Positions 10,502-49,996 of a DNA stretch of 64,000 nt are shown here, piece after piece. The translations under genes and the position numbers were made by a program. The number at the start of each line of letters is the position of its first letter. Within the stretch, counting starts at the first letter, position 1. A model generated the notes under the pieces. That model saw only the letters and a program-made list of their open reading frames with translations, was not told the origin of the DNA and did no database searches. The stretch is from Steroidobacter denitrificans. Its GTDB lineage: Bacteria > Pseudomonadota > Gammaproteobacteria > Steroidobacterales > Steroidobacteraceae. Location of the stretch: NCBI RefSeq assembly GCF_001579945.1, contig NZ_CP011971.1:496001-560000 (forward strand). The letters are read 5' to 3'.

Positions 10502-10710
10502 GGGAAACGATCGGGAACGATCGGATAATATTCGACAGGGATCATGGCACGCAGTCTACGGTATCGACAGCGGCGGCGGCACCCGGCAGCGTTCGCGGCA
10601 AACGACCGATCGGCGGCGCGTGCATCGTTCCATCGCCTGTCCGGGTGCCGCCTTTCCCTGCCTGTGACGGCTCGTTACCGATACCGATGGTCATGGATGG
10701 AGTACATGGC

Positions 10711-11949
10711 ATGTTGAACCGGGCATCGTTACCGTTCCTGCGCCTGCTTTGCAATCTGCGCTGGCTGGCCGTGATCGGCCAGGCGGCCGCGATCATGCTG
10801 ACGACCGGACCCATGCATATCACTCTTGCCACGACGCCTTTGTGGGCGGGGACGGGCAGCCTGGCGTCATTCAACGTTTATGCCATGCGGCGCGTGCGAC
10901 AGGGAAGGGATCCCGAGCCCGCCGAGATTTTTGTTCACATATTGTTCGATATCGTGATCCTGACATGGATGATCTTCTGGAGCGGCGGCATCGAGAATCC
11001 ATTCTCGTCGTTGTTCCTGCTGCCGATCGCGTTGTCCATTCTGGCGTTGCCGGCCGGATGGATATGGTCGACTGCCTTCGCCGGCGGCATCGGATACGGC
11101 ATTTCCGCATGGTTTGGTCCTGAGCTGCCGCATGTGCATGGCGCGTTCGGAGACGCCTTCAGTCTGCACAAGCTGGGCATGCTGGCGAATTTCGTGGCAT
11201 CCGCCGGCGTCGTGCTGTTCTTTTTCACGCGCATGGCGACGGCGTGGCGTCACAGTGAACGAGAAATTGCCAGCCTGCGCGAGCGGTTTACCCGCAACGA
11301 GGGCATTCTGGCGCTGGCGACCCACGCGGCATCGGTGGCGCACGAGTTGAATACGCCGCTGGGCACGCTTACCCTGATGGTGGATGACCTGCTGCATGAA
11401 AGCGGATCCGATGAACAGCGCGAAGACTACGCCACCATGAAGGCGCTGCTGGAAGTGTGTCGTGACCGGGTGCGGGAACTGGCGGCGCCAGCCGAATCCG
11501 AAAGCCGGCGCGGTGATGCCGCGCGGGTGGACCTGGAGCGGGTGATCGAGCGCTGGCAGCTCGTACGTCCCACGATCGAACTGCATCGTACCGGTACGAT
11601 TGCGGGCTATGAAAAGGTGGATCCGGCGGTCGGACACCTGCTGCAGGCGTTGTTGAACAATGCGGCCGACGCCGGCGAACAGGCGAATGTGCCACGAGTG
11701 GACCTGGATCTGCATGCGGATGGCTCGGATCTGCGCGGCGAGGTCCGTGACTATGGCGTGGGATTCAAGCAGGCTCAGCCGCTGCTTCCCGCGACGCTGT
11801 TTCGCACCAGTAAACCGGATGGGCTCGGTATCGGACTGGCGCTTTCCCATGCGACGGTGGAGCGCCTGGGCGGAGAGCTTTCCATGCAGGCGCCGGAGGA
11901 AGGACGTGGCGTGCGGATCTCGTTTCGGCTCCCGCTGGCTCGGTCATGA
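10711..11949 (+). CDS. regB: Redox-sensing histidine kinase, RegB/PrrB type
   Basis: 412-residue membrane histidine kinase. Start ATG 10711 is preceded by GGAG at 8 nt; upstream in-frame ATGs at 10687 and 10693 lack a site. Six membrane helices fill residues ~10-170 and include GGIENPF, matching the RegB quinone-site heptapeptide GGxxNPF. The H-box is SVAHELNTPLGTL and a cysteine (LLEVCRDRV) sits 39 residues after the phospho-His, close to the redox-active Cys265/His225 spacing of Rhodobacter RegB. N and G boxes are LLNNAADAG, DYGVGF and GLGIGLALS. It overlaps regA by 4 nt. It likely reports quinone or redox state. Confidence 0.88.
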   Translation: MLNRASLPFLRLLCNLRWLAVIGQAAAIMLTTGPMHITLATTPLWAGTGSLASFNVYAMRRVRQGRDPEPAEIFVHILFDIVILTWMIFWSGGIENPFSSLFLLPIALSILALPAGWIWSTAFAGGIGYGISAWFGPELPHVHGAFGDAFSLHKLGMLANFVASAGVVLFFFTRMATAWRHSEREIASLRERFTRNEGILALATHAASVAHELNTPLGTLTLMVDDLLHESGSDEQREDYATMKALLEVCRDRVRELAAPAESESRRGDAARVDLERVIERWQLVRPTIELHRTGTIAGYEKVDPAVGHLLQALLNNAADAGEQANVPRVDLDLHADGSDLRGEVRDYGVGFKQAQPLLPATLFRTSKPDGLGIGLALSHATVERLGGELSMQAPEEGRGVRISFRLPLARS

Positions 11950-12518
11950 CGAATCCCCGAGACAGGATGCCGCAGACCGGTATTCTGATCGACGATGACC
12001 CGTTGTATCTGCGCACCTTGCAACGCTCATTGCGGAAGTGTGGACTTAGGATTGTCACCGCGACCACCAAGGCGGAGGCGCTGGCTGCGGCACAGGCGGA
12101 GCCGCCGGACTTCGCACTGGTCGATCTGCGGCTGGGCCAGGAGTCGGGACTTGGCCTCATCGAGCCGCTGAAGGCCATTCGGCAGGACATGCGTGTGCTG
12201 CTGGTCACCGGCTACGCCAGTGTTGCCACCGCGGTCGAGGCGATGAAGCGCGGTGCGGATGACTATCTCCTGAAGCCGGTGACGGTCGATGCGATTCTTC
12301 GGGCTCTGGCGGATGAAATGACTCCGCAGCCGGAACCCGAGGTTACGATGACGCCGTTGAGCCGCCTTGAATGGGAGCACATGCAACAGGCACTCAAGGA
12401 AACCGACGGCAACATATCTGCCGCTGCGCGCCTGCTTGGCATGCATCGCCGGTCGCTGCAGCGAAAGCTTGCCAAGCGCCCCGGGCCTGAGCGCAAGCCC
12501 GACGATACTCCTGGGTGA
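11946..12518 (+). CDS. regA: Response regulator, RegA/PrrA/ActR type
   Basis: 190-residue regulator, start overlapping the regB stop (ATGA). The receiver domain has the acidic pocket (LIDDDPLYLRTL), phospho-acceptor Asp in ALVDLRLGQESG, Thr in LLVTGYAS and Lys in YLLKPVT. The C-terminal Fis-type helix-turn-helix reads GNISAAARLLGMHRRSLQRK, highly similar to RegA/PrrA. The system is expected to control respiratory, redox or energy genes; targets are not identifiable here. The adjoining copper receptor gene (125 bp downstream, same strand) could be one because terminal oxidases need copper, but that is inference. Confidence 0.9.
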   Translation: MTNPRDRMPQTGILIDDDPLYLRTLQRSLRKCGLRIVTATTKAEALAAAQAEPPDFALVDLRLGQESGLGLIEPLKAIRQDMRVLLVTGYASVATAVEAMKRGADDYLLKPVTVDAILRALADEMTPQPEPEVTMTPLSRLEWEHMQQALKETDGNISAAARLLGMHRRSLQRKLAKRPGPERKPDDTPG

Positions 12519-12643: not shown

Positions 12644-14722
12644 ATGCTTTATCTCAGATCCGCCGTGGTCGGCGCCCTGGTGGTTGCCGGCGTGCATGTT
12701 GCGGCGGCGCAAGACGATCACTCGCCTGCGGAACAGTCTCTAGTAGAACAGCCTATGGCGACCTTGGGGCATATCGTGGTCACGGCCGCCGCGCCTGATT
12801 CGGCGTTGACGTTCACGATCGATCCGCGGCTGCCCCGCCAGCCCGTTCCTGCGAGCGATGGCGCCGATTATCTGAAAACCATCGCAGGATTCACCGCGGT
12901 ACGTAACGGCGGTACCAACGGCGATCCGGTGCTGCGCGGCATGTTCGGTTCGCGCCTGAACCTGTTGACGAACGATGGCAGCATGCCGGGGGCGTGTCCG
13001 GGGCGCATGGACAACACGCTTTCCTATGTGTCACCGCAGACTTACGATCTGTTGAGCGTCGTCAAGGGACCTCAGACGGTACTCTGGGGACCGGGAGCTT
13101 CGGCTGGTACGGTTCGCTTCGAGCGTACGCCCGAACCGTTCGAGCATGCCGGCCTGCGTGCGCACGCCAACGTTCTGAGTGGTTCATACGATCGCAATGA
13201 TCAGATGCTGGATCTGACGGCGGGCGCGCGCTACGGTTATGCACGGCTGACGGCGAACCATTCGCAGGCCGATGACTACGAGGACGGCAATGGCAATGTC
13301 GTGCCGTCACGCTGGAAGAAATGGAATGCGGACGTCGCCTTCGGCTGGACACCCGGCGAAGATACGCTGCTGGAGTTTTCGATCGGCGGTGGCGATGGCG
13401 AAGCGCGTTATGCAGGACGCAGCATGGATGGATCCCAGTTCGAGCGCAACAGCTACGCAGTGCGCTTCGAACGCAGGAATCCCGGCGGCCTGCTGACGGA
13501 GGTGACGGCCAGTGCGTTCCTCAACGATGCCGACCATGTCATGGACAATTACAGCCTGCGCGATCCCAATCCCATGAGTTCCATGCCGATGCCCAGAGCC
13601 TCGAATGTGGACCGGCGGACGTACGGAGGCCGCGTGGCGACGACATGGGGTTTGGCGAATCTCGACTGGACCGTAGGGTTGGATGCGCAGGCGAGCCGGC
13701 ATCGCCGCAGAAGTGCGACGGGCCGCGGCATGTACGCATCATTGCCCTGGACGACCGACGCGGAATTCTCCAACGTGGGTGCGTTTGGCGAGTTGACCTG
13801 GAGGTTCGCCGGGAAGAATCGCGTGATTGCCGGCGCGCGCGGCGATCGGGCGGAAGTGACCGACGAGCGGCAGATTGGCGCTGGAATGATGGCGATGCCC
13901 AATCCCACCGCGGGTGTCACTCGTCGCGAGATCCTGCGGGGAGGATTTCTGCGTTTCGAACAGGATCTGAACGACATGCCCGTGGTTTGGTTCGCCGGTA
14001 TCGGCCATGCCGAACGCATGCCGGATTATTGGGAGCTGTTCTCCGCCGACAGGGGACCGGCGGGAGCCATGAATGCATTCACCGGTATCGGTCCCGAGAA
14101 GACGACCCAGCTGGATCTCGGCATCCAGTATCGCGGCGAGCACCTGGATGCATGGGCATCGGCCTATGCCGGCCGCATCGATGACTACATCCTGTTCAGC
14201 TATATGCGCGGTGGGATGATGGGAACGACATCCCGCGTCGATTCGATCGATGCACGCACTCGTGGGGGCGAGGCGGGCGTGGAGTACCGCCTGCGACATC
14301 ACTGGACGCTTGGCGGTACCCTGGCCTATGCATGGGGAGAGAACCGCGATGCGAACGGCGCGCTTGCACAGATGCCGCCTTTGGAGACTCGGGTATCGTT
14401 GGCCTACGACAATGCGCAATGGTCTTTCGGCGCCTTGCTGCGTGCCGTCGACAGGCAGAGCCGCGTTGCAATCGATCAAGGTAATGTCGTCGGCCGCGAC
14501 CTGGGGCCGGCAGCAGGGTTCGTCGTGGTTTCGCTGAACGGCGGCTATCATCTCAGCAGCCATGTCCAGATCACCGCGGGTATCGATAACCTGCTGGATC
14601 GGAATTACCGCGAACATCTGAATCTCGCTGGCAGCGCCGACTTCGGCTACCCCGCCGATCCGGTACGCATCGCCGAGCCAGGCCGCAGCGCGTGGGTAAG
14701 AATGAATCTTACCTTCAAGTAA
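12644..14722 (+). CDS. oprC: TonB-dependent copper receptor, OprC/NosA-like
   Basis: 692-residue outer-membrane receptor with a signal peptide ending near VHVAAAQ. The TonB box region (LGHIVVTAAAPD) precedes the plug, which contains NGGTNGDPVLRGMFGSRLNL and GACPGRMDNTLSYVSP, the segment typical of OprC-type copper receptors (OprC has a GGCPNRMD-like element). Methionine-rich extracellular loops such as NPMSSMPMPRAS, GMMAMPNP and YMRGGMMGT fit copper binding. The barrel ends WVRMNLTFK. It should import copper with TonB and ExbBD. It is 125 bp after regA on the same strand. Confidence 0.9.
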   Translation: MLYLRSAVVGALVVAGVHVAAAQDDHSPAEQSLVEQPMATLGHIVVTAAAPDSALTFTIDPRLPRQPVPASDGADYLKTIAGFTAVRNGGTNGDPVLRGMFGSRLNLLTNDGSMPGACPGRMDNTLSYVSPQTYDLLSVVKGPQTVLWGPGASAGTVRFERTPEPFEHAGLRAHANVLSGSYDRNDQMLDLTAGARYGYARLTANHSQADDYEDGNGNVVPSRWKKWNADVAFGWTPGEDTLLEFSIGGGDGEARYAGRSMDGSQFERNSYAVRFERRNPGGLLTEVTASAFLNDADHVMDNYSLRDPNPMSSMPMPRASNVDRRTYGGRVATTWGLANLDWTVGLDAQASRHRRRSATGRGMYASLPWTTDAEFSNVGAFGELTWRFAGKNRVIAGARGDRAEVTDERQIGAGMMAMPNPTAGVTRREILRGGFLRFEQDLNDMPVVWFAGIGHAERMPDYWELFSADRGPAGAMNAFTGIGPEKTTQLDLGIQYRGEHLDAWASAYAGRIDDYILFSYMRGGMMGTTSRVDSIDARTRGGEAGVEYRLRHHWTLGGTLAYAWGENRDANGALAQMPPLETRVSLAYDNAQWSFGALLRAVDRQSRVAIDQGNVVGRDLGPAAGFVVVSLNGGYHLSSHVQITAGIDNLLDRNYREHLNLAGSADFGYPADPVRIAEPGRSAWVRMNLTFK

Positions 14723-14768: not shown

Positions 14769-15359
14769 TCAGAATTTCTTCCGGTAGATTTTTGCACCCT
14801 GCAGCGAAACACCCGCCATGATGCCGGCGTTCGACATCACGAAACCCACGACAGGCTGTTTCATGGTGTTGGTGTCGATGCTGCCGGTTGCGCCGATCTC
14901 CGCGACGGCCACGGTCGCATCGGCACCGATGGTCCAACCTTCGCTTTGACGAAATTGGTTCAGCGAATCGGTCGTCATGAAGATCAGTACGATGGCACGC
15001 GATTGCGCACCCGCCTGGAATCCGATCGAGCCTGCGGTGGTGGTGTAGTAGTCGATGGTCTTGCCGCCGACGCGCAGAGCGCCATTGCCGTGCTGTCCGC
15101 CGACCACGAAGCTGGCGCTCAGTACCGCGGGAAACACCAATACCCCTTCCGCACGGGCGGTGAGTGTGCGCGACTCCGGTACCGCTTTGTGCAGTCGTGC
15201 CAGGGTGGCGTCCACACCTGCATCGATTTCGCGGCGTTGAGATTCCGGATCACCCTGTCTTTGCGTGCCGGTGGTCGTGCATGCCGTGAGGAGCATGAAA
15301 CTCATTGCGAGAAACGCCGTGGCGCTCTTGAGCAGGAAGGGATTAGGCAGGTTCGACAT
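14769..15359 (-). CDS. SYLF-domain lipoprotein
   Basis: 196-residue exported protein with lipobox LLTAC after a hydrophobic leader (KSATAFLAMSFMLLTAC), so lipidated at about Cys27. The rest is a SYLF/Ysc84-type lipid-binding domain: ALARLHK-like start, AEGVLVFPAVLSASFVVGGQ, GKTIDYYTTTAGSIGFQAGA, IVLIFMTTDSLNQF, then VGFVMSNAGIMAGVSLQGAK. These proteins are periplasmic and of unclear function, often stress-associated. It is convergent with the copper receptor and follows phosphoketolase on the same strand (50 bp), so the two may be co-transcribed. Confidence 0.85.
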   Translation of the reverse strand: MSNLPNPFLLKSATAFLAMSFMLLTACTTTGTQRQGDPESQRREIDAGVDATLARLHKAVPESRTLTARAEGVLVFPAVLSASFVVGGQHGNGALRVGGKTIDYYTTTAGSIGFQAGAQSRAIVLIFMTTDSLNQFRQSEGWTIGADATVAVAEIGATGSIDTNTMKQPVVGFVMSNAGIMAGVSLQGAKIYRKKF

Positions 15360-15409: not shown

Positions 15410-17845
15410 TCAGACATTGTCCGCTTCCGTCGATGACGAACCGCCGTTCGCGTGTCCGCTCCGTCCCCAGCGCCAGCCGGTGACTTCCGGTAGATCTTCA
15501 CCGTATTCATGAATGTATTGCTTGTGTTCGATCAGTCGGTCACGTACCTGTTGCTTGGCATAGGCGGCACGTGCGCCCAGATGCGGCACCCGATCGATCA
15601 CGTCTTCGATGAGATGGTAACGATCCATCTGGTTGAGAACCACCATATCGAAGGGCGTGGTCGTCGTGCCCTCTTCCTTGTAGCCTCGTACATGCAGATT
15701 ATGATGATTGGTGCGGCGATAGGTCAGGCGATGAATCAGCCATGGATAGCCATGGAAGGCGAAAATGATCGGCTTGTCCTTCGTGAACAGGATATCGAAT
15801 TCCTTGTGGGACAACCCGTGCGGATGTTCCTCCGGCGGCTGCAGTTTCATGAGATCGACGATATTGATGACCCGGACCTTGAGATCGGGAATGAAGCGCC
15901 GGATCAGGTCGGCCGCGGCCAGCGTCTCGAGCGTAGGCACATCGCCGCAGCATGCCATGACGACATCCGGTTCGTAACCCTTGTCGGTACTGGCCCATTC
16001 CCAGATGCCGATACCTGCGGCGCAGTGCTTGATCGCCGCATCCATGCTCAACCATTGCGGCGCAGGCTGCTTGCCCGCCACGACGACATTGACCGAGTTG
16101 CGGCTGCGCAGGCACTCCTCGGTGGTCACCAGAAGTGTGTTCGCATCCGGCGGCAGATACACATGAATGATCTCGGCCTTCTTGTTCACCACATGATCGA
16201 TGAAGCCTGGATCCTGATGGCTGAAGCCGTTGTGATCCTGGCGCCAGACATGCGAGCTGAGCAAATAGTTCAACGACGCGATGGGTCGGCGCCACGGGAT
16301 CTCGTTGCATACCTTCAACCACTTTGCATGCTGATTGAACATCGAATCGACGATGTGAATGAATGCTTCGTAGCAGCTGAAAAAGCCGTGGCGGCCGGTG
16401 AGCAGATATCCCTCGAGCCAACCCTGACACTGGTGCTCCGAGAGCACCTCCATCACCCGTCCGTCGGGCGACAGATGGTCATCGTCCGGATGGATGTCCG
16501 CCACGAAGCAGCGATCGGTCACTTGCAGGATGTCCTGCCAACGGTTGGAATTGTTCTCATCCGGGCTGAATATACGGAAATTGCGCTGGTCGAGATTCAG
16601 TTTCATCACATCGCGTAGATAGCTGCCCTGTACACGCGTGGACTCGGCCGTTACCGCACCCGGGGACGGCACTTCAACCGCGTAGATGCGAAAATCAGGC
16701 AGCCGCAGGTCTCGCAACAGTAGACCGCCATTGGCGTGCGGATTAGCGCTCATGCGGCGCGTGCCCTTGGGCACGAGCGCCTTCAGTTCGGGCTTGAGCC
16801 GGCCCCGGGCGTCGAATAGTTCCTCCGGCTTGTAGCTGCGCATCCAGCGTTCGAGAATCTCGATGTGTTCGGGTCGATCCATATCGCCCATGGGCACCTG
16901 ATGGCTGCGCCAATACCCCTCCGTGCGCTTGCCGTCGACTTCTTTCGGTCCGGTCCAGCCCTTGGGCGTGCGCAGCACGATCATCGGCCAGACGGGACGT
17001 CCGCTGAAACCGTTCGCGCGCGCATCGCGCCAGATCGCATGAACCTCGTTCACGACGGCGTCGACGGTCTCGGCCATCAGCCGATGCATGCGCAGCGGAT
17101 CCTCACCTTCGACGAAATAGGGTTTGTAGCCGCACCCTTCGAGGTACTTGCGCAGCTCATCCTTGGGGATGCGGGCAAGGAAACAGGGGTTGGCGATCTT
17201 ATAGCCGTTCAAGTGAAGTATCGGCAATACACAGCCGTCGCGGACCGGATTCAGGAATTTGTTGCCGTGCCAGCCGGCGGCCAGCGGTCCCGTTTCCGCT
17301 TCGCCATCGCCCACGATGCAGGCCACGATGAGATCGGGATTGTCGAACGCCGCGCCATGGGCGTGCGCTAACGAATAGCCCAGTTCGCCGCCTTCGTGGA
17401 TGGAGCCCGGGGTCTCCGGGGCCACATGACTGGGGATGCCACCCGGAAAGCTGAACTGCTTGAACAGCCGCTGCATGCCTTCCTCGTCTTCGCTGACGGC
17501 GGTGTAGACCTCGCTGTAGGTGCCTTCGAGCCACGCCTGCGCCACCAGTGCCGGTCCGCCATGACCGGGACCGATGATGTAGATCATGTCTTGATCATGG
17601 ATCCTGATTGCACGATTCAGATGCGTGTAGATGAAGTTCAGGCCAGGCGTGGTACCCCAGTGACCCAGCAGGCGCGGCTTGATGTGCTCGCGCCGGAGCG
17701 GTTCCTTGAGCAGCGGGTTGTCGAGCAGGTAGATCTGCCCCACGGAAAGATAGTTGCCGGCTCGCCAGTGCGCGTCAAGATCGCGTAGTTCATCGCTCGA
17801 CAGCGCCGCTGTCGTGATGCTCACGCCTTCCACACGCTTGTTCAT
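15410..17845 (-). CDS. xfp: Phosphoketolase (xylulose-5-P/fructose-6-P)
   Basis: 811-residue thiamine-diphosphate enzyme that splits xylulose 5-phosphate (or fructose 6-phosphate) with phosphate to acetyl phosphate plus glyceraldehyde 3-phosphate (or erythrose 4-phosphate). Start [17 protein letters not shown]; full family length. Visible family segments are the substrate loop [37 protein letters not shown], and the ThDP motif [19 protein letters not shown]. Later come [13 protein letters not shown] and [14 protein letters not shown]. No acetate kinase or phosphotransacetylase is beside it, so the fate of acetyl phosphate is unknown. It is divergent from the CruR-like gene. Confidence 0.95.
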
Positions 17846-18023
17846 CCGCGATCCCGCCCCGCAGCCCAGCGTTCTGCACTATAAGCCAAGTCACGCTGCG
17901 CAGGCCAATAAGGCGCCTTGCGGTCGATGGGCGCCGGACCCGTCATCGGGAAGGCTGGTCGCAGGGCCGCAGTGTGCGGGGGTGCCTGAGCTGCCGGCCA
18001 TTCAACAACCTTCGAATTTTGCC

Positions 18024-18029
18024 TACAAT
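18024..18029 (+). promoter_or_regulatory. Candidate -10 element for the CruR-like operon
   Basis: TACAAT lies 34 bp before the GTG at 18063 in an AT-enriched patch. At 16-bp spacing upstream, TCAACA is a weak -35 (4 of 6 to TTGACA). Transcription would begin near 18036. No recognised copper-regulator site was seen. Confidence 0.35.
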
Positions 18030-18062: not shown

Positions 18063-18437
18063 GTGATATCTCGCCGTTTCATGCTGGCCGTCGTGCTGCT
18101 GCCGCTATACATGGCGCGCAGCATGCTGCCGCTCGGCTTGATGCTGTCCTTCGACGAGGGGGCTCCGCGGCTCGTCCTTTGCCCCGGAACGACTTTCGTT
18201 CCGAACGAGTCCGGGCATGAGCAGCATCGCCACGGCGAAGATCGACCCGGCGGCAGCACCGAGCATGACCAGCAGATCTGCCCGTTCGCATTCGCAGCCG
18301 CAGCGCCGCCTACGTTCGATCATGGCGTCGCCGTCGTGCCTTTTCTCTCCGCGGCGATCGCCGCTGCGCCTGCTGCGCCGATTCTTGTCGACGTTCCCCG
18401 CGCACATCCCATTCGCGGCCCGCCCGGACTCTCCTGA
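18063..18437 (+). CDS. DUF2946/CruR-like small protein, candidate copper uORF
   Basis: Small protein heading the receptor operon. From GTG 18063 (behind GAAGG) it is 124 residues; from ATG 18081 it is 118. A hydrophobic N-terminal segment (MLAVVLLPLYMARSMLPLGL) is followed by LVLCPG, a His-rich stretch (GHEQHRHGED) and QICPFAF, and the end is PIRGPPGLS. This layout matches DUF2946 proteins. In Bordetella pertussis the DUF2946 protein CruR acts as a copper-responsive uORF through a CXXC motif and a C-terminal RAPP arrest motif. Here the end is RGPP and the two cysteines are far apart, not CXXC. Regulatory function is inferred, not shown. Confidence 0.6.
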   Translation: MISRRFMLAVVLLPLYMARSMLPLGLMLSFDEGAPRLVLCPGTTFVPNESGHEQHRHGEDRPGGSTEHDQQICPFAFAAAAPPTFDHGVAVVPFLSAAIAAAPAAPILVDVPRAHPIRGPPGLS

Positions 18438-18494
18438 AGCAAGCTGATCGTGGATTGAATGTCGCACTCCGACCAGGAGTGCGCTCCTTGCTTT
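18436..18494 (+). promoter_or_regulatory. Nested hairpins between CruR-like gene and receptor
   Basis: An inner perfect 8-bp stem (CGCACTCC 18463-18470, loop GACCA, GGAGTGCG 18476-18483) sits inside an outer 8-bp stem (GAAGCAAG 18436-18443 with CTTGCTTT 18487-18494, one G-U). The outer left arm overlaps the TGA stop of the upstream gene, and the right arm ends 2 nt before the GGA of the receptor's ribosome site. A ribosome stalled at the C-terminus would prevent the outer stem. Roles in coupling or termination are inference. Confidence 0.5.
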
Positions 18495-18507
18495 TGGATA
18501 TTCAAAA

Positions 18508-20670
18508 ATGATCAAACGACCTTTCGGGTCGGTGGCGATATGCATCGCCGCCGGCCTGGTGATCGATGCTGTGGCGATCGAGGCTGTATTCGCCCAGGAG
18601 GCGGCGCAGTCCGTGGACGCAGCCAGGCGAAATGTACTGGATACAGTGATCGTTTCAGCTTCTCGTGAACGGGAACTGCTGTCCGAAACGCCGGCGTCGA
18701 TCGGTGTCATCGGCGAGGCCGCCGTACGCAGGGCGGGCGCGACGCATCCGCAACAGATTCTGAGCCAGGTGCCCGGCGTTGCGGTATCCGTTACAAACGG
18801 CGAAGGACATACGACCGCCATCCGCCAGCCATTCACGACCAGTCCGCTCTATTTGTTCCTGGAGGATGGTTTGCCGATTCGTGCGACCGGTTTTTTCAAC
18901 CATAATGCCTTGTATGAGCTGGATCTGCCCATGGCCGGCGGCATCGAGGTCACGCGCGGACCGGGCAGCGCACTGTATGGATCCGACGCTGTCGGCGGCA
19001 TCGTCAATATGCTGACGCGCGCCCCGGCGCCGATGGCTGGACTGGGTGGTTCTCTCGATGCCGGCAGCCATGGCTGGCGGCGCCTGATGCTGGAGGCGGA
19101 TACCGGCGAGGGTGCATGGGGTAGTCTGCGCGGCGGAGCGAATTTGACGCGCTCCGACGGCTGGCGCCATTACACCGGTTACGAGCGGAAAAGCGTCGAT
19201 CTGCGCTGGGATCTAACGACCCGATCCGGCGTGCACCTCAAGACGCTGCTTGCAGCGGGACATATCGATCAGGATACCGGCGCCAATTCGCCGCTGATCT
19301 ACAATGATTACCGCAATGATCCGACCCGCAACAATTTTCCTATCGCCTATCGCAAGGTCGAAGCACTGCGCCTGTCCATGGCGATCGAGAAGGAACTCGG
19401 CAACGGATTGCTCTCCATCACGCCGTATGTGCGCGACAATCGCATGGAACTGCTGGCGTCCTTCTCCCTGAGCTACGATCCGACGCTCTATGAGACCGCC
19501 AACCGGTCCTATGGCGCCTTGTTCAAATGGCGGCAGGATTTTCCGGCGTTCATGCGTGCCCGTCTCATCGGCGGCCTTGATGTGGATATCAGCCCGGGCG
19601 AGCGCAAGGAAAATCGTCTGGATGTGATCGCTACCGGCAGCGGCGCCTCCCGTGTCTTCAGTGATTATCGAGTCGGCGCTCGCATCTACGATTACGATGT
19701 GACCTTCCGTGCATATTCGCCGTACCTGCAGGGCGAGATTTCACCGCTCGAGCGGCTGCGCGTGACGCTGGGCATTCGCTACGATGCACTGAGCTACGAT
19801 CTCGACAACAAGCTGGCAGGAACATCTGTGCAGGGGGCGGCAACCTCGTTCTACGGCCAGACGCCGGATACGACGGTCGACTATGATCATGTCAGCCCGA
19901 AGATCGGTGCGACCTACGCGCTGAGCGATCGCATGAGCATTTATGCGTCCTACAACACGGGCTTTCGGGTGCCGTCCGAAAGTCAACTGTTTCGGCCATC
20001 GGTGGCCGCGAATGCCGCGGATGCCGCGGCCAGGGCATTGTTGGCGATGAACCTGAAACCGATCACGGCGACGCAATTCGAGATCGGCTGGCGTGGAAAA
20101 TTCGATCGCTGGTCCCTGGATTTGACCGCGTTCGATCTGGTGAAGCGCGATGACCTCGTCAGCCAGCGCGATATCGCCACCAACCTCACCACGAACGTCA
20201 ATGCCGGCAAGACCTCGCATCGCGGTCTGGAGGCCGGGATGGGTGTGGAGCTGTCGCCGAGCGTCCGGCTGGACTCGGCATTATCCTATGCGCGGCACGA
20301 GTACCGGAATTGGGTGACCGCGGCGGCGGACTTCAGCGGCAACGACATCGAAGCGGCACCGCGCGTTCTGGGCAACACGCGCCTTTCGTGGAATTCTGCG
20401 GCGGGTGTGGATATGCAGCTCGAATGGATTCATGTCGACGACTACTGGCTCGAGGCGTCGAATGCGAGCAGTTTTCCCAAGTATGGTGGCCATGACCTGT
20501 TCAACGTGCGCGCCCATTGGCAGGCGACGCCGTCCGTCGCCCTGTTCGGTCGTATCTACAATATAGCCGATACGCGGTATGCGGACAGCGCCCAGATTTC
20601 GTCCGGCACGCCGGTCTATTCACCGGGCCTGCCGCGCACCTACTTTGCCGGCGTGGATGTGCTCTGGTAG
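18508..20670 (+). CDS. TonB-dependent outer-membrane receptor
   Basis: 720-residue receptor with signal peptide (cleavage near AVFAQEA). The TonB box is probably LDTVIVSASRE, followed by the plug (TPASIGVIGEAAVRRAGATH, then ILSQVPGVAVSV, ending GPGSALYGSDAVGGIVNMLT). The barrel runs to LPRTYFAGVDVLW. Methionine-rich loops like those of the OprC homologue are not obvious. In the B. pertussis CruR operon the equivalent gene (bfrG) encodes a receptor lowered by copper, so copper or a copper complex is the favoured substrate. It starts 70 bp after the CruR-like gene, with only GGA as ribosome site, consistent with coupling. Confidence 0.88.
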   Translation: MIKRPFGSVAICIAAGLVIDAVAIEAVFAQEAAQSVDAARRNVLDTVIVSASRERELLSETPASIGVIGEAAVRRAGATHPQQILSQVPGVAVSVTNGEGHTTAIRQPFTTSPLYLFLEDGLPIRATGFFNHNALYELDLPMAGGIEVTRGPGSALYGSDAVGGIVNMLTRAPAPMAGLGGSLDAGSHGWRRLMLEADTGEGAWGSLRGGANLTRSDGWRHYTGYERKSVDLRWDLTTRSGVHLKTLLAAGHIDQDTGANSPLIYNDYRNDPTRNNFPIAYRKVEALRLSMAIEKELGNGLLSITPYVRDNRMELLASFSLSYDPTLYETANRSYGALFKWRQDFPAFMRARLIGGLDVDISPGERKENRLDVIATGSGASRVFSDYRVGARIYDYDVTFRAYSPYLQGEISPLERLRVTLGIRYDALSYDLDNKLAGTSVQGAATSFYGQTPDTTVDYDHVSPKIGATYALSDRMSIYASYNTGFRVPSESQLFRPSVAANAADAAARALLAMNLKPITATQFEIGWRGKFDRWSLDLTAFDLVKRDDLVSQRDIATNLTTNVNAGKTSHRGLEAGMGVELSPSVRLDSALSYARHEYRNWVTAAADFSGNDIEAAPRVLGNTRLSWNSAAGVDMQLEWIHVDDYWLEASNASSFPKYGGHDLFNVRAHWQATPSVALFGRIYNIADTRYADSAQISSGTPVYSPGLPRTYFAGVDVLW

Positions 20671-20683
20671 CGCGGGAGGCTGC

Positions 20684-21886
20684 ATGCGACGAAGAACGGT
20701 TGTTGCCGCGCTGGGCGTTCTGTCTTGCTGGCCGTACGTGCGCGCATTGGCGCATGCCGGCGATACGCATCGGCATGCTCAAGCCGGCAGGCGTACGGGA
20801 CTGGCGATGAGCTCTGCTTTCGCGCCGGACGGCAGCTTGTGGATGGTCGGATTGAACCAACGCCGGCAGCTGTTCGTGCAGCGCAGCAGCGACGGCGCGC
20901 ACTGGAGTGCGCCGCGCGTCATCGATACCGGGCACGATACGATCGCCGCCGAAGGCGAATTGCGGCCGAAGCTTGCCTTCGGACCGGATCGGCGGGTGGT
21001 CATCTCCTACACGCAGCCGCTCTCGAAGCCGTATACCGGTGAGATTCGCATGCTGCGCTCGGTGGACGGAGGAGCGAGTTTCTCCTTGCCGTTCACCGTG
21101 CATCGCGATCGGCAGCTCATCACGCACCGCTTCGAATCGATCGCCTTCGACTCGAGCGGTGCGCTGCATACGCTGTGGATCGACAAGCGCGACCTGGAGG
21201 CGGCCAGGCTGAAGGACGATGGCGGGAGTTATGCGGGCGCGGCGATCTATCGCAATGTGTCGCTCGACGGCGGCCGCACATTCGGGCCCGATATCAAGCT
21301 GGCCGATCATTCGTGCGAATGCTGCCGCATCGCGCTTGCACCTGCCGCGGGCGGCGGCCTGGCGGCGATGTGGCGGCATGTGTTTGCCGGTAACGTGAGG
21401 GATCACGCCTTCTGCACGATCGCCGCAGGCGGCGGCTCCGCGAGCGAGATGCGGCGTGCAAGTTTCGACGAGTGGAAGATCGATGCTTGTCCGCATCATG
21501 GTCCGGGGCTGGCGAGCGGCACGGGCGGTGGTTACCACGCCGTATGGTTCGGCGTGCGCCACGATGTGCCGGCGATCAGGTACGCTCTTCTCGATGAGCA
21601 GGGCGCGCCGCGCGGCCCGGTTTTGGAGCTGCCCGATGCGGGCGCGGAACATGCCGACGTAGGCAGCGTCGGTACGAATGTCGCGATCGTATGGCGAAGC
21701 TTTGACGGCGCGTGCACGCGCTATTCGGCCTGGCTTTCGAACGATGACGGCAGGACCTTCGCTATGCGTGTCCTGGGGAGCACGGAAGATGAGAGCGATA
21801 ATCCGTTCCTGGTGCGTCGCGATCGGCAGTTGTTCGCGATATGGCGCACGCGCCAGGAGGTGCGCGTTGAGCGGATGTTCGGATAG
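20684..21886 (+). CDS. BNR/sialidase-fold periplasmic protein with CECC motif
   Basis: 400-residue exported protein. ATG 20684 follows GGGAGG 13 nt after the receptor stop, so it is in the same operon. The leader ends near ALAHAG. Asp-box-like repeats are visible (SSDGAHWS, SVDGGASFS, SLDGGRTFG, SNDDGRTFA), indicating a beta-propeller, often annotated as exo-alpha-sialidase. A cluster HSCECCRIALAP near residue 208 plus IDACPHHGPG would suit metal or thiol chemistry, and the N-terminus is His-rich (HAGDTHRHAQ). A glycosidase role is doubtful: no sugar genes adjoin it. It may bind copper near the receptor. Confidence 0.7.
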   Translation: MRRRTVVAALGVLSCWPYVRALAHAGDTHRHAQAGRRTGLAMSSAFAPDGSLWMVGLNQRRQLFVQRSSDGAHWSAPRVIDTGHDTIAAEGELRPKLAFGPDRRVVISYTQPLSKPYTGEIRMLRSVDGGASFSLPFTVHRDRQLITHRFESIAFDSSGALHTLWIDKRDLEAARLKDDGGSYAGAAIYRNVSLDGGRTFGPDIKLADHSCECCRIALAPAAGGGLAAMWRHVFAGNVRDHAFCTIAAGGGSASEMRRASFDEWKIDACPHHGPGLASGTGGGYHAVWFGVRHDVPAIRYALLDEQGAPRGPVLELPDAGAEHADVGSVGTNVAIVWRSFDGACTRYSAWLSNDDGRTFAMRVLGSTEDESDNPFLVRRDRQLFAIWRTRQEVRVERMFG

Positions 21887-21926
21887 CGCCGTGCGCCGGA
21901 CCGGAACGGTCGTGCGTGGAGTTGGA

Positions 21927-22397
21927 ATGGCCATGCGTCGGGCTGGAACGGCGGGCGCCTTAGTCGCCGTTTGCGCTTTTGCCGCGGCCGCGGCGGCGCC
22001 ATCGAGCGTGGAGCGATTCGATGCCGCCGCCTGGGAGGACTTGCAGCAGGAGCTGTCCCGGCCGTCCGCCGTGGTCTTCACGGCCACCTATTGCGCAAGC
22101 TGTCCCGCTGTGCTGGCGAAACTGTCGGGTGCGCTCAGGGAACGAGGCATCGAGGGCGATGTCGTCGCGGTCGTGATCGATGACGCCGAGGCGTCCGAGT
22201 TGTTGAAGAACCGGCATTACCGGCATGCATCGCGCCTGTTCCTGTTCGAAGGGAATGAGGCCTCACTGCGCTACCGGGTCGACTCGCGCTGGCGCGGCGT
22301 CACGCCCTATGTTGCATTGCTGACCGCCAATGGCGAGACGGTGTTCACGGCCGGCACGCCGAGCGATGCGCAGATCGCGGCGTGGATCGGGCAGTGA
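21927..22397 (+). CDS. Thioredoxin-like periplasmic protein (CASC)
   Basis: 156-residue exported thioredoxin-fold protein. A hydrophobic leader (MAMRRAGTAGALVAVCAFAA) precedes a domain with VVFTATYCASCPAVLAKLSG, giving a CxxC redox pair, and a cis-Pro equivalent in RGVTPYVALL. The start is uncertain: ATG 21927 is 5 nt after GGAG; ATG 21933 and GTG 21891 are also in frame. It lies 40 bp after the BNR gene as the last operon member and may keep the neighbouring CECC cysteines or copper ligands reduced. It converges with the antiporter operon, leaving 6 bp between stops. Confidence 0.75.
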   Translation: MAMRRAGTAGALVAVCAFAAAAAAPSSVERFDAAAWEDLQQELSRPSAVVFTATYCASCPAVLAKLSGALRERGIEGDVVAVVIDDAEASELLKNRHYRHASRLFLFEGNEASLRYRVDSRWRGVTPYVALLTANGETVFTAGTPSDAQIAAWIGQ

Positions 22398-22403
22398 ATA
22401 CGG

Positions 22404-22754
22404 CTAATCCGTTCTCCGGGTGACGATCCATGTTCCGCACACCAGCGCGACCGCCGTGGGTGCGAAGCGCCAAGGCGCATCGAGGAACGCCAGTCCTACG
22501 ATCGAACCGATTGCCAACGCGACAAGCGCGGCGGCCTTGCCACGACGGCTGATCGCCCGGCGCTCGCGCCAGGCGCGCATGGGTGGACCAAACTGCGGAT
22601 TGTCCAGGAGGCGCCGTTCCCATTCGGGATTGCTTCTGGCGAAGCAGAAGGCGGCGGCCAGCATGAAGGGCACCGTCGGTAGAAGGGGCAGGAATATACC
22701 GACAATGCCGAACCCGACGGCGATGATGCCGGCGACGAGATAGATCAGCCTCAT
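22404..22754 (-). CDS. DUF454 (YbaN-family) membrane protein
   Basis: 116-residue inner-membrane protein. Start MRLIYLVAGIIAVGFGIVGI; then PLLPTVPFMLAAAFCFARSN, a signature segment of DUF454/YbaN, and NPQFGPPMRAWRERRAISRR before a C-terminal helix pair. Function is unknown. It begins 9 bp after mrpG, so it is probably the last gene of the antiporter operon. Confidence 0.85.
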   Translation of the reverse strand: MRLIYLVAGIIAVGFGIVGIFLPLLPTVPFMLAAAFCFARSNPEWERRLLDNPQFGPPMRAWRERRAISRRGKAAALVALAIGSIVGLAFLDAPWRFAPTAVALVCGTWIVTRRTD

Positions 22755-48733: not shown

Positions 48734-49996
48734 TTACCAGCGATGCAGGGGCACCCTGGTGCCTTGCGCGATGATCGCCTCTGCCGGCGGCAGTTCGACG
48801 AAACCGTCGGTGCCGATGAGCGAGGTGAAATCCCCTGATCCCTGCGTGGGCCGTGGCCTGGCGGCTGGAGCTTGCAAGTCCATCGGCAAGCCGGACTTTT
48901 CACATCGGTCTCCATGTTCACCAATCCATGGCTTGGAGTCGAGCGCGAATCCGCCGATTCTCACCGGTACGAACCGGGTCACGGCCATTGCCGGCAAATC
49001 CTGCGCCAATGCAATCGTTTCGAGCGGTGACGCCGGGGTTCCGGCGGCGGCCTCCAGGCCGCGAAACACATAGCGGGTCAGGCACATGAGCGTAGAGACC
49101 GGGTTACCTGGCAAAGCGTACACCGCCTGGCCTCCGGCGCCCACCCCGAACCACATCGGCTTGCCCGGACGCTGCGCGATCTTGTGGAACACCTGGGTGA
49201 CGCCGAGTTCCCGCATGACCTGAGGCACGAAGTCGAATCGGCCCATGGATACGCCGCCGCTGAGGATCAGCGCGTCATGCGCATCGAGGTGGGCGCGCAG
49301 GCGGGTGCGCAACAGAGACAGATCGTCGGGAAGGTGGTCCTGGGCCAGCTGAGAATAACCGTGCCGGCGCAGCGCAGCCCAGAGTCCGTAGATATTGGAG
49401 CGATGGATCTGCCAGTCTGCAAGAGGTTCGCCGGGCTCCACCAGTTCGTTGCCGGTGGAAATCATCATGATACGCGGTGGCCGGCTCACCAGGGCTTGGG
49501 CATATCCATTGGCGGCCAGGGCGGCAACTTCCGCGGCACCCAGGAGGGTACCGGATTTCAGCAGCGGATCGCCGCGGCGGGCGTCGAGTCCGCGAGTATG
49601 GATGTTCATCCTGCGGACCGGTGCGGCGCCTTCCTGCAAGACGGCCGTGCCGCTGTCGATGTCGATCTTTTCCACGGGAACCACGCAATCGCAGCCGGCC
49701 GGCAGCATTGCCCCCGTCATGACCTCGATGCAGCTTCGCGGATCCCTCAGGTGTAGCGGGGCCGAGCCGGCAGCCTGGATGCCGGCAATATGAAAGCGGC
49801 GGCAACCGTTCTCGAATGCCGACCAAGCCAAAGCGATGCCATCCATCATGACCCGGTCGAATGGCGGTTGGTCACGAGTCGTGACGGTATTTTCCCTCAG
49901 TGTCGTGCCGGCGAGTGCGGACAGCGGCAGGGATACGGCGGGCAGGAGCGGTACGTGGCTCCGGATCGCGACTTCGGCCTGGGCGGGAGAGATCAT
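48734..49996 (-). CDS. moeA: Molybdopterin molybdenumtransferase MoeA
   Basis: 420-residue enzyme that inserts molybdate into adenylylated molybdopterin. Domain segments: DQPPFDRVMMDGIALAW (variant of the S/A-MDG loop), VMTGAMLPAGCDCVVPVE, ARRGDPLLKSGTLLGAAEVA, ISTGNELVEPGEPL, LILSGGVSMGRFDFVP and GQAVYALPGNPVSTLMCLTR. It heads the moeA-moaA-moaC-mobA::moaD-moaE operon. A strong hairpin stands 23 nt upstream of its start (50020-50047). Confidence 0.95.
   Translation of the reverse strand: MISPAQAEVAIRSHVPLLPAVSLPLSALAGTTLRENTVTTRDQPPFDRVMMDGIALAWSAFENGCRRFHIAGIQAAGSAPLHLRDPRSCIEVMTGAMLPAGCDCVVPVEKIDIDSGTAVLQEGAAPVRRMNIHTRGLDARRGDPLLKSGTLLGAAEVAALAANGYAQALVSRPPRIMMISTGNELVEPGEPLADWQIHRSNIYGLWAALRRHGYSQLAQDHLPDDLSLLRTRLRAHLDAHDALILSGGVSMGRFDFVPQVMRELGVTQVFHKIAQRPGKPMWFGVGAGGQAVYALPGNPVSTLMCLTRYVFRGLEAAAGTPASPLETIALAQDLPAMAVTRFVPVRIGGFALDSKPWIGEHGDRCEKSGLPMDLQAPAARPRPTQGSGDFTSLIGTDGFVELPPAEAIIAQGTRVPLHRW

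Follow-up and report, generated by a model that had tools for sequence, protein, structure and literature searches.

A DUF2946 leader without CXXC as a candidate arrest-peptide uORF ahead of a TonB-dependent receptor and a beta-propeller protein in Steroidobacter denitrificans

CruR, a leader protein of Bordetella pertussis, depends on its CXXC motif to respond to copper, and a semiconserved upstream Cys of the protein is dispensable (main text of PMC9426467). We analysed a 64,000-nt stretch of Steroidobacter denitrificans DNA (hereafter the window) in which a small ORF without CXXC stands before a TonB-dependent receptor gene, and asked whether this ORF could still encode a metal-sensing leader. 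A sequence-only reading of the same DNA had described a DUF2946-like small protein followed by the receptor, a BNR-fold protein and a CxxC thioredoxin on one strand. ORFs, Pfam matches and a predicted structure confirmed this layout, which runs from the leader ORF through the receptor and the propeller to the thioredoxin-like protein, all on the + strand (Table 1).

Table 1. Positions in the window of the observed and predicted features of the leader-receptor locus
Feature	Position	Strand	Remark
Sigma-70-like promoter match	18002..18029	+	weak, candidate; upstream of leader ORF
Leader ORF (uORF)	18063..18437	+	DUF2946 protein, 124 aa; GTG start 18063, stop 18435-18437
Cys40 codon	18180..18182	+	invariant in alignment A1 (14 rows)
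Loop with His52, 55, 57, 68	18216..18266	+	between both cysteines
Cys73 codon	18279..18281	+	in C-P-F-A, at CXXC site of CruR; invariant in A1
Leader 3' end, C-rich and G-poor	18285..18434	+	C minus G 0.167; candidate Rho loading region
RGPP codons	18414..18425	+	predicted arrest motif
Predicted hairpin	18445..18514	+	AUG 18508-18510 paired with 18449-18451
TonB-dependent receptor	18508..20670	+	720 aa; Plug and beta-barrel domains
Predicted beta-propeller (BNR-like)	20684..21886	+	invariant CECC and CPH
Thioredoxin-like protein	21927..22397	+	with CASC

The leader matched Pfam DUF2946 (PF11162) over residues 7-121 with 25.4 bits against a curated cut-off of 23.7, which bears out the family membership proposed earlier, and the whole genome (one contig, 3.47 Mb) gave a single DUF2946 match, found at E 1. 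Both domains of the receptor exceeded their Pfam cut-offs. The BNR-like protein had a weak BNR_2 match (E 0.00083, under the curated cut-off), and its predicted structure is a beta-propeller with a pLDDT of 90. The thioredoxin-like protein had sub-cut-off Pfam matches only (ACC_epsilon, E 0.0014; Thioredoxin, E 0.024), and both of its CxxC cysteines were retained in 28 of 28 aligned rows. The starts of these last two genes were chosen by reading candidate starts and lie later than those of the longest ORFs. The promoter is a candidate only, since the single match upstream of the leader compares with 1.2 per shuffle on average.

The receptor matched solved CrtA (9RVQ) partially (E 4.7e-14, residues 43-221), ranked behind CirA and YncD entries, and OprC (TIGR01778, cut-off 472.45) was absent among the best 25 of its 32 NCBIfam matches, the last of which scored 33.1 bits. 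A second TonB receptor, of OprC type (TIGR01778, 786.6 bits), occupies 12644-14722, 3.3 kb upstream on the + strand, and is preceded at 10645-12518 by a sensor kinase and a response regulator by eye; the ORF list held no RxPP-ending ORF upstream of it. The opposite-strand neighbours (14769-15359, 15410-17845 and 22404-22754) comprise a Ysc84-domain protein, a DUF454 protein and a long phosphoketolase-like ORF (by eye).

The leader carries the motifs LVLCPG, HEQHRHGED...TEHDQ, QICPFAF and IRGPPGLS. In an alignment of 14 sequences, Cys40, Cys73 and R118-G-P-P121 were invariant; in the window leader the two cysteines are 33 residues apart, and the distance from Cys73 to the RGPP arginine is 45 residues. 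The spacing from the metal motif of CruR to its arrest site matters to within one or two residues (Roy et al., PMC9426467). The absence of CXXC from the leader, already pointed out from the sequence, was confirmed in its ORF. Because neither CXXC, the motif of CruR, nor CXXXC, that of CutF, was found in the window leader, we class it from its sequence as a putative variant arrest-peptide uORF rather than as a CruR.

RGPP arrests translation in several contexts and gave the most stable arrest among the RAPP-like motifs compared, and the arrest of CruR was shown in vitro (PMC12992588). The view of RGPP as an arrest motif therefore stands, though as a published motif and not as the speculative variant that it had been taken for, and since its arrest is already in print it is no objection to a CruR-type reading. 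Both RGPP and RAPP are avoided in proteomes (RGPP strongly) and show an enrichment towards the ends of small leader proteins, and such leaders are enriched before genes for TonB receptors, PCuAC, PepSY and thioredoxin-domain proteins (PMC12992588). Small proteins that are encoded before a TonB receptor gene and have RGPP close to the C-terminus are listed there as a class, into which the window leader falls, although the tested proteins named in the available text do not include it (PMC12992588). Reading the window from stop to stop in all six frames gave 603 ORFs of 60 aa or more, two of which, the leader included, end with R[AG]PP no more than 10 residues from the stop. The sole other such ORF (49264-49467; 68 residues, with RAPP close to the stop) is probably a chance occurrence.

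Relatives from the genus and family are laid out alike. P-x-G-x-M follows the first hydrophobic stretch; next come a Cys, a loop that is mostly rich in His, C-P-F-A or C-P-F-S, and finally RGPP at the end. We compared 174 distinct leaders, drawn from the family, the receptor relatives and a Pfam-drawn sample of the phylum (one of 175 was removed as a duplicate). P-x-G-x-M was present in 39 of the 174, and CXXC occurred in 0 of these 39 versus 120 of the remaining 135. The phylum sample alone, taken as 110 loci among the matches listed (accepted up to E 1, a few of them weak), nine of which had no leader, gave 100 rows, with CXXC in 0 of 3 PxGxM rows versus 88 of the 97 others (9 without). A fourth clade row in this sample, L291, was missed by the PxGxM pattern.

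In the leader tree, which has few columns and a bootstrap that is not settled, the window fell into a branch of 45 rows with support 99/94, which includes rows of four families outside the class. Since all 45 rows of this supported branch lack CXXC, its absence is, on the sequences compared, a trait of the window's clade and no defect of a single copy. The clade rows were mostly collected by a profile of the clade's own members, so the sampling favours the clade; the 40 loci were taken among the profile matches listed, mostly top-scoring, and several were clipped by contig ends. Nine CXXC-less rows lie outside the clade and the tree requires 6 changes of the CXXC label; some non-clade leaders therefore also lack the motif, which was lost, or missed by the pattern, more than once.

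In 44 of the 45 clade rows the distance from the retained Cys to the Arg is 45-50 residues (22 rows at 47, 16 at 48; the remaining row yielded no value), and for the first Cys of CXXC in the other rows it is mostly 48-50. The tetrad starting at the retained Cys reads CPFA in 22 and CPFS in 7 of 44 clade rows (29/44 together). The 45 residues before the Cys held on average 5.62 His in 52 CXXC-less rows versus 2.93 in 120 CXXC rows; the count ranged from 0 to 16 across the clade and was 4 in the window. When the ends of the DUF2946 proteins were compared for RGPP versus RAPP, 32 of the 45 clade rows had RGPP and 10 had RAPP, and R-x-P-P stood near the C-terminus in 44 by pattern; L107 was scored as RTPP although RAPP occurs further in. 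The earlier concern over the missing motif, with sensing then left to spaced Cys and His, is settled in part by the C...His...C arrangement that the clade as a whole keeps in place of CXXC.

We consider it somewhat probable that the leader belongs to the CruR/CutF (DUF2946) kind of uORF and encodes an arrest peptide that responds to metal, with release by copper and coupling to Rho. At low copper, the ribosome would stall at RGPP, where it would cover the C-rich leader end and keep Rho off, so that the receptor, propeller and thioredoxin-like genes would be made. When copper is present, the metal would bind the emerging chain via Cys40, Cys73 and the loop histidines; the metal-bound chain would then fold and pull, the arrest would be released and translation would finish, after which transcription would stop before the receptor gene. 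Cys40 need not be a ligand, because the semiconserved upstream Cys is dispensable in CruR (PMC9426467).

The CruR mechanism uses a C-rich region for Rho (PMC9426467). C minus G in the last 150 nt was 0.167 for the window leader, with means of 0.131 over 41 leaders (window included) and 0.128 over 33 leaders, versus a mean of -0.011 in 79 control gene ends, 10 of which exceeded 0.05. Such an end is as expected for Rho loading but could instead follow from Ala/Pro codons. Terminator-like sites numbered 4 versus a mean of 3.0 in shuffles, and a candidate intrinsic terminator in the intergenic region was set aside (5 pairs, with the T-run a few bases off).

The window shares several features with CruR: a leader of the DUF2946 family stands before a TonB-dependent receptor, RxPP lies close to the leader's C-terminus with a metal motif (a putative one in the window) 45-49 residues upstream, and the 3' end is C-rich (PMC9426467). 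Where CruR has RAPP, and CXXC about 49 residues before RxPP, the window has RGPP and C...His...CPFA; its intergenic region, 162 nt long in CruR, measures 70 nt and carries a predicted hairpin that covers the receptor start (PMC9426467). CruR controls the CrtA receptor and a PepSY_TM protein, whereas the window has a receptor that matches CrtA only in part, a propeller and a thioredoxin-like protein (PMC9426467). Against a CruR-type reading stand the absent CXXC, the varying His count, the partial match of the receptor to CrtA and the 47 of 80 receptor relatives in which no leader was found.

PCuAC is a copper chaperone, and its gene often neighbours those receptor relatives that have a leader. 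We compared the best 80 of 307 such relatives, which have 48-60% identity in the best segment and come, by their titles, mostly from Betaproteobacteria or Opitutae-type genomes. A leader with an R[AGSD]PP ending, defined by this ending rather than by individual Pfam scoring, ends no more than 700 nt upstream of the receptor in at least 33 of the 80; this is a lower bound because 5 of the 80 loci have less than 500 nt upstream. CXXC was present in 32 of these 33 leaders, with L163 as the exception. A PCuAC gene was nearby in 19 of the 33 loci with a leader versus 1 of the 47 without one found. Its start falls in the gap between leader and receptor in 9 of these 19 loci and downstream in 3; the remaining 7 have it about 0.9 kb before the receptor, where the leader has not yet ended, so the leader is not always the first gene. 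In those with the start about 0.9 kb before the receptor (L137, L138, L145, L151, L178, L183 and L185), the leader may be operon-internal. The receptor is followed by the propeller in 72 and by the thioredoxin-like protein in 26 of the best 80 relatives.

Within the window's own group, the propeller was present at 7 of the 40 fetched leader loci. Some CXXC-less leaders of this group head loci with PepSY_TM (L086, L092, L093), PCuAC (L092), SCO1 (L089) and OprC-type genes (L095, L115). Since the same receptor subfamily sits behind CXXC leaders and near PCuAC, copper is our best guess, by gene association, for the metal of the window's leader. The setting of the proposed copper-uptake operon is thus backed by the gene-neighbour comparison, its support being one of association. 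At L088, L089, L096, L100 and L108, CXXC-less leaders lie directly before proteins of 326-369 aa without a Pfam family at E 0.01, followed at L089 by SCO1; these proteins may form an undescribed family related to copper.

The hairpin raised the question of whether the receptor could instead be controlled by a CutF-type translational switch, in which the hairpin would mask the start of the receptor gene until a metal-dependent pause during leader translation opened it. We consider this unlikely. The hairpin folds far better than its shuffles (z -3.92; -4.04 in the junction set, the lowest of 55), the receptor AUG is paired within it (probability of being unpaired 0.015), and CutF itself acts via a hairpin and pausing, with most CutF-like intergenic regions shorter than 100 nt (PMC9973294). 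However, the 55 leader-gene junctions, including the window, had a mean z of -0.97, single values being rough because starts were taken as the longest or nearest ORFs, uncurated; z fell below -2 in 13 of the 55. The hairpin was rejected as a family-wide element on this count, and in some relatives an AGGAG is clearly present and fairly open. A modelled ribosome, its footprint being an approximation, left the AUG paired (0.01) when its P-site held the first RGPP proline and freed it (0.71) at the stop codon. We ranked the Rho model first and the hairpin second, since most relatives lack the hairpin and an RGPP-stalled ribosome leaves it closed; the two mechanisms could also act together. CutF of Rhodobacter capsulatus resembles the window in its DUF2946-like leader, its terminal proline motif and a short stretch to the next gene, whose start lies under a hairpin, but it has CXXXC and GPPP, neither of which the window leader has, and it activates a multicopper oxidase with copper where the window has a presumed uptake receptor; the window hairpin also lies beyond the modelled footprint of the stalled ribosome (PMC9973294, PMC8456105).

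An arrest-peptide sensor of another metal (zinc, nickel or cobalt) or of export stress seems quite unlikely to us, even with CXXC lost and the higher mean His count of the CXXC-less rows. His-only CutF-like clusters adjoin HupE/UreJ, perhaps for nickel or cobalt (PMC9973294), and a DUF2946 gene of Caulobacter heads a zinc-responsive efflux operon (PMC4176598); yet some relatives in the clade adjoin PCuAC, SCO1, PepSY_TM and OprC-type genes, and the same receptor subfamily adjoins PCuAC behind CXXC leaders. It is very improbable that the small protein is an exported metal-binding protein without a regulatory role, as its signal-peptide-like start (by eye) and conserved cysteines might suggest. 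This reading is opposed by R-x-P-P near the C-terminus in nearly the whole clade, by the avoidance of RGPP/RAPP in proteomes and their enrichment at small-leader ends (PMC12992588), and by the action of CruR and CutF in cis only (PMC9426467, PMC9973294).

The propeller is the least-described part of the locus. CECC, CPH, H148 and H285 were invariant in its family, and a sequence search of solved structures gave a chance-level match only. Compared with the YncD (PqqU)/YncE pair, its top structural matches were sialidase-like lectins and not YncE; the conservation of CECC and CPH refers to the window's own propeller family. Among the papers listed by a literature search, none was seen to describe this pairing of receptor and propeller. 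The main texts of PMC9426467 and PMC9973294 contain none of the words BNR, sialidase and propeller, and BNR and sialidase are absent from the available text of PMC12914433.

Variation in the metal motif is itself known, since 29 clusters of CutF-like leaders with cysteines, histidines or both as metal motifs have been reported, compared here by their main-text description (PMC9973294). We tentatively propose, as a possibility short of an even chance, that the window's clade senses metal via two distant cysteines and a His loop instead of CXXC and, in the window's genome, controls an outer-membrane receptor with a propeller dedicated to it in the periplasm, whose metal site would consist of CECC, CPH(H) and further invariant histidines; the propeller would then represent an undescribed copper-handling protein family. 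The locus points to a widespread receptor-propeller pair with invariant Cys/His motifs, which in loci with a leader often lies close to the gene of a copper chaperone. The clade also offers a natural experiment in nascent-chain metal sensing, in which the arrest end and its spacing stay constant and the metal site is altered; swapping one segment could thus test which ligands an arrest peptide uses and how specific it is for its metal.
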